Shown here: positions 3,412 to 53,297 of the stretch, in pieces
Numbering within the stretch: the stretch's first letter is position 1
Layout: each line of letters opens with the position of its first letter
Assembly: GCA_014239955.1 (NCBI GenBank)
Contig: JAAZXW010000019.1
Location: 1 to 53,297 of the forward strand
DNA from: Methanobacteriota archaeon
GTDB lineage: Archaea > Thermoplasmatota > Poseidoniia > Poseidoniales > Thalassarchaeaceae
Direction of reading: 5' to 3'
Length of the DNA stretch: 53,297 bases
Notes under the pieces: generated by a model
The model's input: only the letters and a program-made list of their open reading frames with translations
The model's database searches: none
Told to the model about the DNA's origin: nothing
Position numbers and translations under genes: made by a program

Positions 3412-3798
3412 ATGCCAGGCACGACTCGGGCCGAGATACGGACGCTGAAGGTAGGGCGGTACGTTGCGATCGAGGAAAACGCCTACAAGATTCTCAGCAT
3501 GTCCAAGTCGAAACCCGGGAAGCACGGCTCGGCCAAGGCCAGGATAGAGCTAGAGGACATCTTCACCGGACAGAAGCGCTCACACGTGGGGACGGTGACC
3601 GACACGATCCAGATCCCCCTCATCGAGAAGGGCTCGGCCATCATCACGCACATCCAGGGGGAAGAGGTCCATGCGATGGACAGCAAGACCTACCAGAGCC
3701 TTATTCTGCCCGTCGAAGCGAGTATGAACCTGCAATCCGGCGGGGAGATACAGTGGATGGAAGCCATGGGGAGATACAAGATCAGCCGGGACCACTAG
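3412..3798 (+). CDS. Translation initiation factor 5A (hypusine-containing aIF5A)
   Basis: The 128-residue product has the aIF5A layout: an N-terminal SH3-like domain with the exposed loop SKPGKHGSAK, in which Lys37 is the residue converted to (deoxy)hypusine, and a C-terminal OB domain. The factor helps ribosomes through peptide bonds that form poorly, such as proline runs. The start at 3412 gives the usual N-terminus (short lead, then EIRTLKVGRYV) and has a TATA-like element about 25 nt upstream; the in-frame ATG at 3379 would add 11 residues not typical of the family. The gene stands alone between the surface protein and a transporter. A protein resembling deoxyhypusine hydroxylase lies at the far end of the window. 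Deoxyhypusine synthase is not in the window. Confidence 0.95.
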   Translation: MPGTTRAEIRTLKVGRYVAIEENAYKILSMSKSKPGKHGSAKARIELEDIFTGQKRSHVGTVTDTIQIPLIEKGSAIITHIQGEEVHAMDSKTYQSLILPVEASMNLQSGGEIQWMEAMGRYKISRDH

Positions 3799-49109: not shown

Positions 49110-50066
49110 TCAAGCAGCGTTTTTCCGGTCTATGCACTTACGGGCCGCTTCGCAAATAGATTCGCTCGTCAAGCCAATTTCAATCATCAGTTCGGATACC
49201 CCCCCGCTCTCCCCGAATCTGTCTTTGACCCCTACCATCTCCAGTGGAATCGGGTTGTTTGATGATAGCCACTCTGCAAGTGCCCCACCCAGCCCCCCAA
49301 TTACTGAGTGATCCTCTGCAGAAACGAAGCACCCACACTGCTTAGATAGCCTTGCAAGCAAATTATCGTCCAACGGTTTGATTGTATGCATATCCACCAC
49401 AGTGCACCCAATTCCTTCTTCAGAGAGTGTAGAAGCCGCTTCGCAGGCAAGTCCAACCATAACACCACAAGCGATTATCGCTACATCATTCCCTTCTTCG
49501 AGGACTGATCCAGTCCCAATTCTCAAGTCCAGTTTGCTTTCTTCATCATACATTCTGGGAACTTTGTTTCTTCCAGTTCTCATGTATGACGGGCCTTCTA
49601 GATTCAATAACTGGACAGTCAACTCTTCTGCCGACAAATCGTCACACGGGTGAATCACAGTCATCTTTGGGATTGACCTGTACACTGCTAAATCTTCAAT
49701 TGTTTGCGCACTGCTCCCATCTGAACCAGTATGGATGCCCCCGTGGCTCCCACATATGTGCACCTGTAAGCCAGGCCGTGCTACCCCATTACGAATCTGC
49801 TCAAAGGCCCTTTCTGTGAAGATTGCGAAAGTACTGGCAAAGGGAATCTTCCCGGATGAAGCCATACCAGCCGCCACGAGCATCATATTTTGCTCGGCTA
49901 TGCCCAAGGAGACGGTTCTTTCGGGAAACTTCTCACGAAAGTGACAAGACTTAGTGGACTTACCCAGATCCGCTTCAAGGACAACGACACGAGGGTCATC
50001 TGCCAGCCTAAGGAGGGCATTCCCATATCCATCCCGAGATGCACCCCCAACCGATGGCAGGCTCAT
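49110..50066 (-). CDS. Transketolase, C-terminal subunit
   Basis: A 318-residue protein holding the pyrimidine-binding and C-terminal domains of transketolase. The conserved Glu of thiamine activation is in VSLGIAEQNMM; other blocks are FASTFAIFTERAFEQIR, HGGIHTGSDGSSAQ and the C-terminal VVDMHTIKPLD. The start codon overlaps the stop of the N-terminal subunit by 4 nt, so both are made from one message and pair to one enzyme. The split form is common in archaea and some bacteria. It supplies pentose and tetrose phosphates; sedoheptulose 7-phosphate, the GmhA substrate, is also a product. Confidence 0.93.
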   Translation of the reverse strand: MSLPSVGGASRDGYGNALLRLADDPRVVVLEADLGKSTKSCHFREKFPERTVSLGIAEQNMMLVAAGMASSGKIPFASTFAIFTERAFEQIRNGVARPGLQVHICGSHGGIHTGSDGSSAQTIEDLAVYRSIPKMTVIHPCDDLSAEELTVQLLNLEGPSYMRTGRNKVPRMYDEESKLDLRIGTGSVLEEGNDVAIIACGVMVGLACEAASTLSEEGIGCTVVDMHTIKPLDDNLLARLSKQCGCFVSAEDHSVIGGLGGALAEWLSSNNPIPLEMVGVKDRFGESGGVSELMIEIGLTSESICEAARKCIDRKNAA

Positions 50067-50929
50067 GACAATTCCTCCAATGCAATAGAAAGCTCCTCAT
50101 CATCGGGTGCCTTTCCATGGAAAGAAGGGTTATCCTCCATGAACGAGACACCCTTTCCCTTTGTGGTGTTTGCAATTATTGCTATCGGCCCCTCATCGGA
50201 TGAATCTACCCAACGGAAAACTTCCACCAGAGCGGTCATGTCATGCCCATCAACTTCTCTGACAACCCAACCAAAAGATGCGAACTTCTCTCCAATATTA
50301 CCTATCTCCATCTGAACTTCCATGAAGTCATCATTCTGTATCCTATTCCTATCAACAATTACTCGAAGATTCGATGCACTGTGATAATTTGCTGCCATCG
50401 CGGCTTCCCAGATTTGACCTTCCTGCGTCTCCCCATCACCAAGCATGACCCAGATGCTCCTTTCGCTGGAATCCATTTTAGCAGATAGTGCGCATCCTAG
50501 TCCAAATGACAATCCCATACCAAGGCTTCCAGCAGAAAAATCAACTCCCTTTGTCCAATTCATATCGACGTGGCCTTGGCAAACAGAACCCATGGTTCTG
50601 AACCCCAATAGATCCCGTTGCTCAAGAACCCCCATCTGGTGAAGGATTGCATACATTGCAGGACTAGCATGGCCTTTACTCATGATGAATCTGTCACGAT
50701 CTTCCCAGTTTGGATTGTTCGTATCGAACCTTATGCTAGTTCCGTAAAGGGCCACCATGCAGTCAATAGCTGACAAGGATCCACCGGGATGGCCGGAACC
50801 AGCGGCATTAGTCATCTTGACAATATCAATTCTGCATAATCTTGCCATTTCTTCGAGTTCATCAACTCTACCTTCCACGCCATCGCCCACGAACAAAAGT
50901 CCCGTGTCAGGGCTATTGATGGTTTTCAA
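50063..50929 (-). CDS. Transketolase, N-terminal subunit
   Basis: A 288-residue protein with the thiamine-diphosphate-binding domain. GSGHPGGSLSAID near residue 43 and LGDGETQEGQIWEA (the GDG metal and diphosphate site) are clear. Further SKGHASPAMYAIL and GSLGMGLSFGLG match transketolase. It forms the active enzyme with the C-terminal subunit encoded directly downstream. Start at 50929; the first 25 residues are not conserved-looking, so a later start is possible. It is divergent from mqnE. Confidence 0.93.
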   Translation of the reverse strand: MKTINSPDTGLLFVGDGVEGRVDELEEMARLCRIDIVKMTNAAGSGHPGGSLSAIDCMVALYGTSIRFDTNNPNWEDRDRFIMSKGHASPAMYAILHQMGVLEQRDLLGFRTMGSVCQGHVDMNWTKGVDFSAGSLGMGLSFGLGCALSAKMDSSERSIWVMLGDGETQEGQIWEAAMAANYHSASNLRVIVDRNRIQNDDFMEVQMEIGNIGEKFASFGWVVREVDGHDMTALVEVFRWVDSSDEGPIAIIANTTKGKGVSFMEDNPSFHGKAPDDEELSIALEELS

Positions 50930-51045
50930 TGATAATTTCTCAAACTACCTAGCAGAGTGGTTCAAATCATACCAATTGTCCGGGTTGATTAGAGATGACA
51001 ATTCAACCATTACCAGAAAACAATTGGCGGATAGAACTGTCCAAA

Positions 51046-52194
51046 ATGACCATCCCAATATCAGTTAGAAACGACCCATTGCTCTCTGACACGCTAGGGA
51101 CATTAATCGAAGGAGGACGGATATCAATGAAAATCGGGGCAGATTTGCACAGGAATGCCAAACTACCCGGTCTTACTGCACTAGCGAGAATGATAAAGCA
51201 GTCAAGATTTGGGAATAGCGTCTTCTTTAACGAAAATCTGCATGTAAATACCACCAATGTCTGCACTCTTGCTTGTCGGTTTTGTGCTTTCAGAAAGGGC
51301 TCTAGGCATAGTGAAGCATACTCTCTAAGCGCTGAGGATTTCATCACTCGAATCGAGCCATATCGTGGAGTAATTGACGAGGTTCATGCTGTTGGCGGAC
51401 TCCATCCTGACTGGACTATCGACAATTATTCTGAAATGTATGAATTGACGAAGAGGAACTTTCCGAATATTAGTATCAAATCACTCACGGCGGTAGAGGT
51501 GAAGCATATCGCTTCCAGATCAGGATTATCAATTAGGGAAACCCTCCAAATTCTGAAGGAATCGGGGCTAGACTCACTCCCTGGCGGCGGTGCTGAGATT
51601 TTGGTCGATTCCATAAGGGATCGGATTTGCATGGGCAAGGAGAAGTCATCCGAATATCTGGAGATTCACGAGATTGCTCACGAACTCGGAATCCCAACTA
51701 ATTGCACGATGCTTTTCGGAACAATTGAATCGATAGAGGATCGGATGACTCACTTAGACAAGCTCAGGTCTCAGCAGGACTCTTCCATGGGTTTCCAGTG
51801 CTTCGTCCCATACCCATTCCTGGAAGACAATACTCGACTTCCAGAAGCCTCACTCGCATCTGGTGAAGAGGTAATCCGAGTAATCGCATTGTCAAGAATA
51901 ATGCTTGACAACATCCCGCACATCAAGGCATACAGAATGAATATCGGAGATCACCTCGCCTCAATAGCAATCAATTCAGGAGCCGATGATATCGATGGGA
52001 CCGTTGGCCACGAGGAGATTATGCATGACGCTGGCAGTACCGCCAGCGTCGATTACGACAGTACGAAACTAGCATTTCTAATCGATTCTGCCGGACAAGA
52101 GCCAGTTAAGAGGGACTCCACATATGCCAAGTTTGAGCCGATAGATTCTGAGCCGATCAGTGATTGGCAAATTCTTCCAATCATAGGACAGTGA
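51046..52194 (+). CDS. mqnE: Radical SAM enzyme of the futalosine menaquinone route, MqnE-like
   Basis: A 382-residue radical SAM protein from ATG 51046 (ATG 50995 would add 17 residues). The iron-sulfur site is CTLACRFC (Cys 73, 77 and 80; CxxxCxxC), preceded by HVNTTNVC, a pattern shared by MqnE and MqnC. Later conserved parts include EVHAVGGLHPDW, GLDSLPGGGAEIL and GFQCFVPYPF. MqnE makes aminofutalosine from 3-[(1-carboxyvinyl)oxy]benzoate, the product of MqnA; MqnA is encoded 4 nt downstream, which favours MqnE over MqnC. MqnB, MqnC and MqnD are not in the window. Confidence 0.87.
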   Translation: MTIPISVRNDPLLSDTLGTLIEGGRISMKIGADLHRNAKLPGLTALARMIKQSRFGNSVFFNENLHVNTTNVCTLACRFCAFRKGSRHSEAYSLSAEDFITRIEPYRGVIDEVHAVGGLHPDWTIDNYSEMYELTKRNFPNISIKSLTAVEVKHIASRSGLSIRETLQILKESGLDSLPGGGAEILVDSIRDRICMGKEKSSEYLEIHEIAHELGIPTNCTMLFGTIESIEDRMTHLDKLRSQQDSSMGFQCFVPYPFLEDNTRLPEASLASGEEVIRVIALSRIMLDNIPHIKAYRMNIGDHLASIAINSGADDIDGTVGHEEIMHDAGSTASVDYDSTKLAFLIDSAGQEPVKRDSTYAKFEPIDSEPISDWQILPIIGQ

Positions 52195-52198
52195 AAAC

Positions 52199-53002
52199 AT
52201 GTCCTGGAAAAGGGTCTTCGGCAGGGTGTCTTTCATCAATTGCGATCCTATTTTCCACACGATTGATGCAAATTGGAAGATTTTGGCAGCTCCCCCATCA
52301 TGGCTAACCGGGCATCTCTTGAGGAAGGACTGCATCACTGCTCCTATTCCAACCGCCGACTATGCAACAAACAGAGACCAACTAAGACTCATTCGGGACA
52401 TTGGTATTGTTGGCCGGCAGTCTGTAGGTTCAGTATTGCTATTCGGAAACAGGAGTCTCGAGTCGATGCGCGACATTGCTCTGCCATCTGATTCATCGAC
52501 CTCAAACATGCTCATTAAGTGGATTTTGGGATATAGGGGATTAGACCCAAAACTGATCCCAATGGGCCCAGACATTGAGGCAATGTTGGAGGTATGCGAC
52601 GGGGCGCTAATAATCGGCGATAGGGCAATCTCAGCCGCCGCCAATTTTCCCGAATTAGTTCGAATGGATTTGGGCGGGGAGTGGACAAATATCACGGGTC
52701 TTCCAATGGTCTTCGGAGTCTTCGCTGCCAGAAACGACTCCCAACCATCTTTTGTCCATGAAGCTAGAAACTCAATGCTGAAGAACTACAATAATTTTCT
52801 AGTAGACGAGGAAACAAGATCATCCGTCATATCTTCTGCATCCCAGAAGGTCAACTTGCCGTTAGAGAGAGTGACAAAATACTTCGACTCTGAAGTCTCA
52901 AATCTTCTCGATCGCTCGTCTATAGAAGGTCTGAGAACCTTCCTAGGGGAAGTGTGCGGGGTTGATTCGGAACCAGACTGGTTCGACCATCAATCCGAGT
53001 AA
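52199..53002 (+). CDS. mqnA: Chorismate dehydratase MqnA-like
   Basis: A 267-residue protein of the periplasmic-binding-protein fold. VFGRVSFINCDPIF at the start, LAAPPSWLTGHLLRKD, and LIIGDRAIS with LPMVFGVFAAR match MqnA, which removes water from chorismate to give 3-[(1-carboxyvinyl)oxy]benzoate. It follows mqnE by 4 nt. The related MqnD has a similar fold; the paired position and the VSFINCDP opening support MqnA. The 3' end overlaps the convergent DOHH-like gene by 13 nt. Confidence 0.87.
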   Translation: MSWKRVFGRVSFINCDPIFHTIDANWKILAAPPSWLTGHLLRKDCITAPIPTADYATNRDQLRLIRDIGIVGRQSVGSVLLFGNRSLESMRDIALPSDSSTSNMLIKWILGYRGLDPKLIPMGPDIEAMLEVCDGALIIGDRAISAAANFPELVRMDLGGEWTNITGLPMVFGVFAARNDSQPSFVHEARNSMLKNYNNFLVDEETRSSVISSASQKVNLPLERVTKYFDSEVSNLLDRSSIEGLRTFLGEVCGVDSEPDWFDHQSE

Positions 53003-53297
53003 TCTAGCCTATCACTAGAAACCCAATTCAGTAAATCGATCGCTACTTCGCATGACTCCGCTACTACGGTATCATCGTCTTCGGCAAACTTTTCCAATGT
53101 CGACATCGCCATCCTATTACCAATTGCACCAAGTGCCTCGGCAGCTTCGTGCCTGACCATGACATCCTCTTGAAAGTCCTCCAATCGATTAATCAGATGG
53201 GGGACAGCATGATCATCTTGCATCTGCCCCAAGACGTAGGCAACTTCGTGCTTCAGTAAAGCAGAGGCCGAGCCAAATGCATCTGCCAACGAGTCAA
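52990..53297 (-). CDS. HEAT-repeat protein resembling deoxyhypusine hydroxylase, 5'-partial
   Basis: The frame is open to the right window edge, so only the last 102 or so residues are seen. They hold HEAT-like repeats with two His-Glu pairs, in SALLKHEVAYVLGQMQ and VMVRHEAAEALGAIG, exactly 33 residues apart, followed by DDTVVAESCEVAIDLL. This order and spacing are those of the C-terminal half of eukaryotic deoxyhypusine hydroxylase, whose four His-Glu pairs hold a di-iron centre that hydroxylates deoxyhypusine in eIF5A. aIF5A is encoded at 3.4-3.8 kb. General PBS-lyase-type HEAT proteins share parts of this pattern, so the assignment needs the missing N-terminal half. Confidence 0.7.
   Translation of the reverse strand, partial: DSLADAFGSASALLKHEVAYVLGQMQDDHAVPHLINRLEDFQEDVMVRHEAAEALGAIGNRMAMSTLEKFAEDDDTVVAESCEVAIDLLNWVSSDRLDYSD

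Follow-up and report, generated by a model that had tools for sequence, protein, structure and literature searches.

A half-length homologue of deoxyhypusine hydroxylase in planktonic marine archaea, probably a one-domain, homodimeric di-iron enzyme acting on aIF5A

A half-length gene homologous to eukaryotic deoxyhypusine hydroxylase (DOHH) was identified on contig JAAZXW010000019.1 of a Thalassarchaeaceae archaeon of the order Poseidoniales (assembly GCA_014239955.1). It lies at the right edge of the window, i.e., the 53,297-base stretch analyzed here (positions 1–53297 of the 172,579-base contig), which cuts the gene and holds its 3′ part. We consider it likely that this gene encodes a one-domain deoxyhypusine hydroxylase that would act as a homodimeric di-iron enzyme on the archaeal translation factor aIF5A. 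This reading is based on the half length, the homology to DOHH (including the linker), invariant residues, the predicted fold, and purifying selection among near relatives, as well as on the presence of deoxyhypusine synthase (DHS) and aIF5A and, outside the order, co-occurrence with haem-copper oxidase; from these we infer iron binding, homodimer formation, and O2-dependent hydroxylation of aIF5A. The features concerned are as follows:

52990..53297, minus strand: windowed part of the half-length DOHH gene (residues 58–158 and the stop codon), from frame reading and contig extension.
53245..53250, minus strand: first His-Glu pair, H73-E74 (corresponding to human H56-E57 and H207-E208), from sequence and alignment; human residues from the available part of PMC9117371.
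53146..53151, minus strand: second His-Glu pair, H106-E107 (corresponding to human H89-E90 and H240-E241), on the same basis and source.
3412..3798, plus strand: aIF5A, the expected substrate, with the loop KPGKHGSAK and the expected site K37; 113.8 bits on TIGR00037 (cut-off 75.45).

The complete gene spans contig positions 52990–53466 (minus strand; ATG start at 53466) and encodes 158 residues. Its open frame at 52990–53295 (minus strand) carries KHEVAYVLGQMQ, MVRHEAAEALGAIG, and VVAESCEVAIDL, which the original prediction had recognized as DOHH-type blocks, as well as the two His-Glu pairs (H73-E74 and H106-E107) with the 33-residue spacing that it had described. That prediction had read the frame inside the window as the C-terminal half of a longer DOHH; the likeness to DOHH held, but only 57 residues, without any further His-Glu pair, remain beyond the window, and a full-length DOHH extending past its edge was ruled out by the 158-codon gene. 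The expectation of four His-Glu pairs per chain had to be abandoned, as the half-length gene has two and a 43-row profile, applied to 389 genomes of the phylum, revealed no frame that joins two halves. The outcome that had been named as adverse to the prediction, an N-terminal half lacking His-Glu pairs, was encountered in the literal sense only, because the protein has no N-terminal half; the gene upstream belongs to the MqnA/MqnD family. Neither four His-Glu motifs nor eight HEAT repeats are present in one chain, and the protein was therefore classed as a half-length variant and not as a canonical DOHH.

According to the available part of PMC9117371, the two irons of human DOHH are held by H56, H89, and E90 and by H207, H240, and E241, while deoxyhypusine is bound by E57, E208, E90, and E241 together with two glycines. 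H73, E74, G80, H106, and E107 of the archaeal protein align with both human residue sets (subtracting 5 from the chain index gives the published His and Glu numbers; the glycines then fall at 63 and 214, the first being numbered 65 in the review). In an alignment of 43 rows (the protein itself and 42 chosen relatives), H73, E74, H106, and E107 are invariant in all rows, so that the iron triad and the substrate glutamate are both retained throughout, and G80 is a glycine in 42 rows, the other row having one ambiguous letter. At least two [KR]HE motifs were found in each of the 71 frames of loci L001–L071 (at most 70 distinct genes). A single chain thus contains one iron triad and no more, and two chains together would match one eukaryotic chain.

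In the mechanism proposed here, each chain would form four HEAT hairpins and carry one iron triad (H73, H106, E107), the substrate glutamate E74, and the glycine G80. DHS would attach an aminobutyl group to K37 of aIF5A, giving deoxyhypusine, and two identical chains would pair face to face, like both halves of eukaryotic DOHH; this pairing would unite two irons in a peroxo-di-iron centre, which would surround the side chain of deoxyhypusine on aIF5A and hydroxylate it.

Judged at the sequence level, the resemblance to DOHH is greater than chance. Human DOHH was matched at 233.8 bits (E = 7.3e-69; phmmer), its two halves scoring 123.9 and 108.3 bits, and the homology spans nearly the whole chain and exceeds that to other HEAT proteins; natural HEAT proteins scored low (29.4 bits for MTH187 and 22.3 bits for the CpcE chain 5n3u). 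Shared with human DOHH (PDB 4d4z/4d50) and yeast Lia1 are the HEAT-repeat fold, the 33-residue His-Glu spacing, and the iron and substrate residues; the SVDPAP linker segment is also held in common with eukaryotic DOHH, and identity to the human C-half is ~48%. Per chain, the archaeal protein has four HEAT hairpins (eukaryotic DOHH: eight) and two His-Glu pairs (eukaryotic DOHH: four), and, unlike the eukaryotic enzyme, it would need pairing to complete the site. Plasmodium DOHH has been reported with five HEAT repeats (available part of PMC3306375). The fold predicted from the 43-row alignment, which was used because prediction from the single sequence was weak (pLDDT 48.9), is that of a DOHH half with four HEAT hairpins in 158 residues.

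PBS-lyase HEAT proteins (CpcE/CpcF and NblB) and YibA have HEAT_PBS repeats and the HEAT fold in common with the half-DOHH, and designed consensus alphaRep proteins reached up to 157.7 bits when six stretches were summed; the protein might thus be an ordinary non-catalytic PBS-lyase-type scaffold whose DOHH likeness stems from shared closeness to the HEAT consensus. This is quite improbable, given that the best single alphaRep stretch printed reached 46.7 bits, far below either DOHH half, that the matched region covers the SVDPAP linker as well as the His-Glu sites, and that the curated NCBIfam models gave 42.9 bits for NblB (cut-off 300) and 28.7 bits for CpcE (cut-off 330), placing the protein outside these families. 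In addition, the archaeal and human halves grouped together, apart from five generic HEAT rows (support 100/99, with or without yeast rows), in a tree with several long branches and odd composition in some outgroup rows. A position inside the PBS-lyase HEAT proteins, which had been named in advance as counter-evidence, was therefore not seen against these five rows (CpcE/NblB sequences not being among them), and sequence, predicted structure, tree, and invariant iron and substrate residues agree with the earlier claim that the protein resembles DOHH and is not a generic HEAT protein.

How the archaeal halves are placed with respect to the eukaryotic N- and C-halves was not fixed by the trees: a clade of N- and C-halves was not rejected (p-AU, approximately unbiased test, 0.243 with human sequences only and 0.213 with yeast halves added), and neither was one clade of archaeal halves (p-AU 0.274). 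The best tree without outgroup set the N-halves apart from the archaeal halves and C-halves (98/97), which decides nothing because that tree has no root. The archaeal consensus agrees with 43 of the 48 columns identical between the human halves; where these differ, it matches N at 16 columns, C at 20, and neither at 38, and in the 10 columns with a consistent half difference in human and yeast it matches N at 4, C at 4, and neither at 2. This pattern fits an unduplicated form, although a homodimer playing both roles could look alike. The SVDPAP head precedes the C-half only. We tentatively suggest, as a possibility rather than the expected outcome, that the eukaryotic two-domain DOHH arose by duplication and fusion of such a homodimeric half-gene, that the inter-domain linker derives from the SVDPAP head of the second copy, and that the unfused form still serves aerobic Thermoplasmatota in making hypusine.

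The presence of aIF5A in the window, also claimed by the original prediction, was confirmed at 3412–3798 (plus strand). Its start was taken at the ATG of MPGTTRAEI and K37 was assigned by analogy with human K50; on PRK03999 it scored 127.3 bits, below the cut-off of 138. DHS is encoded on another contig (366 bits on the curated PRK01221, cut-off 350) and was found in all 23 genomes tested, of which 17 have the half-DOHH and 6 lack it. Two matches to the DHS family were seen in 18 of these 23 Thermoplasmatota genomes, and in the six Poseidoniales with two matches the second was strongly diverged (E 1e-37 to 1e-43). DOHH chemistry requires O2. The haem-copper oxidase gene COX1 was detected in 130 of 292 genomes drawn evenly across the phylum; outside the order it occurred in 9/9 genomes with the half as compared to 45/202 without it (Fisher 2.8e-6, kinship uncorrected).

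The half-DOHH gene is flanked in the window genome by futalosine-type menaquinone genes (an MqnE/C-like radical SAM gene and two PF02621 genes):

52199..53002, plus strand: menaquinone gene of the MqnA/MqnD family (PF02621), which we read as MqnA; convergent with the half-DOHH gene, whose 3′ end it overlaps by 13 bases.
50995..52194, plus strand: radical SAM protein of the MqnE/MqnC kind; best model TIGR03700, 368.3 bits, below the cut-off of 434.55.
Contig 53466–54404, minus strand: upstream PF02621 menaquinone-family gene (235 bits), which we read as mqnD-like; its stop overlaps the half-DOHH start by one base.

A DNA primase small subunit gene was seen nearby in relatives, and a putative split transketolase (two adjoining frames taken for the C- and N-terminal parts) was noted by eye at 49110–50929 (minus strand).

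Because the gene sits behind an mqnD-like gene, the protein could instead be a DOHH-family di-iron (or mono-iron) oxygenase with another substrate, e.g., in quinone metabolism. Besides the one-base overlap, inspection by eye showed such a neighbour in no fewer than 8 of 10 Poseidoniales loci, and tblastn showed it in 6/6 loci; by eye, with no neighbour search made, it was absent from L052 and L059, which belong to other families, while the remaining loci of high GC (guanine plus cytosine) content could be read only with difficulty. The DOHH substrate-binding residues are conserved, and, to our knowledge, the futalosine menaquinone route has no O2-dependent step that lacks an enzyme, which we count against this alternative; overall, we judge it unlikely. 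A heterodimer, in which the half would pair with a diverged HEAT protein encoded elsewhere in the genome, would accord with the additional HEAT_2 matches in 13 of 16 genomes and with the dissimilarity of the human halves to each other. We hold it to be very improbable, since the half alone carries the full iron triad and the substrate glutamate, only a single HEAT_2 match was found in the window genome (79% complete) and in G022, G072, and G123 (92, 97, and 90%), and none of the 16 other-HEAT loci fetched (a selection) had a frame with two His-Glu pairs 33 residues apart. A separate N-half gene was not found in HEAT_2 scans of the window genome and 16 others, nor in the 16 loci of other HEAT proteins.

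The half-DOHH gene was matched in 47 of 60 relatives at 1e-5 and in 77 of the 292 genomes of the even draw. In this draw it was found in 62 of the 81 genomes that belong to the same order, with at least four of these copies cut or interrupted (G049, G053, G218, and G305), and nine strong matches came from six other families (E 4e-49 to 3e-27; 42–58% identity); six weak matches (best E 5e-10 to 4e-7) were taken for generic HEAT proteins. The 43-row profile at 1e-15 detected the gene in 104 of 389 genomes; those from outside the order were again the nine noted above. In a genome-contig scan, the best 80 of 242 relatives were 66–90% identical and titled MGII, Poseidoniales, Thalassarchaeaceae, Thermoplasmatota, or Euryarchaeota; in viral contigs none of 18 pattern matches was confirmed, and plasmids gave no match at 1e-5. 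Five of the 104 genomes had two matches (G033, G305, G334, G338, and G392), which in G305 are pieces of a single interrupted copy on one contig. In the two two-copy genomes compared, the copies were 132/159 (L098/L099) and 157/163 (L115/L140) identical, each with its own mqnD-like gene ahead, and the L115 protein is identical to L028 of G033; pairs of different halves were thus discarded, the near-alike copies being read as mixed strains (not proven).

Of six pairs, three had a finite dS, and in these the ratio of non-synonymous to synonymous substitution rates (dN/dS) was 0.05, 0.07, and 0.13 (eight loci tried, one left out). Among order genomes without the half, 11 of 14 had the mqnD-like gene (as compared to 0/2 genomes of another family of the class), and tblastn detected half remnants directly behind it in four of these 11 (L193, L195, L197, and L201; E 0.002 or better) and no recognizable remnant in the other seven. 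In the genera g3 and g9 of the family, the half was absent from all genomes drawn (four and four). The dN/dS values and the remnants together therefore suggest constraint in near relatives and decay in several genera, in some of which other members keep the gene. In L195:1–1497 (minus strand), a DUF531 protein located behind the mqnD-like gene carries an in-frame fusion to ~19 head residues of the half (SVDPAPPSS).

Several observations weigh against a hydroxylase acting on aIF5A. In Poseidoniales, the gene sits behind the mqnD-like gene and not beside hypusine genes; it has been lost in some members, with relics in places, and is therefore dispensable there. Outside the order, COX1 occurs without the half in 45 genomes, six of them from the same class, and 5 of 81 order genomes have the half and no COX1 match (the window genome, G000, and G022, G194, G223, and G283; 79–92% complete); these five leave our assessment unchanged because the genomes are incomplete. 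According to the available part of PMC5178350, tested Euryarchaeota, Thermoplasmales included, had mostly deoxyhypusine; the passage names no Poseidoniales.

Archaea have been described as having DHS, with no DOHH homologue found, in the available parts of PMC3306375, PMC5178350, PMC6105217, and PMC7773846. Among the papers listed in searches of the open-licence PubMed Central literature, we found no report of an archaeal DOHH homologue, and no paper was obtained on hypusine in Thermoplasmatota or on DOHH in Asgard archaea. In Sulfolobus, hypusine in aIF5A was demonstrated by mass spectrometry, and no DOHH homologue is reported in the available part of PMC6105217; the half-DOHH gene thus does not explain Sulfolobus hypusine.

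For archaeal hypusine, which these published statements leave without an explanation, the DOHH-type half of planktonic marine archaea is a directly testable candidate, predicting hypusine in carriers and none in relatives that lost the gene; the genera g3 and g9 offer a natural comparison of hypusine with deoxyhypusine. Two copies of the half could jointly form a complete active site, in a domain for which the available parts of the literature cited report no such enzyme. The half-DOHH would thus offer a minimal symmetric di-iron hydroxylase for studies of mechanism and, if ancestral, would show how the pseudo-symmetric eukaryotic enzyme originated.
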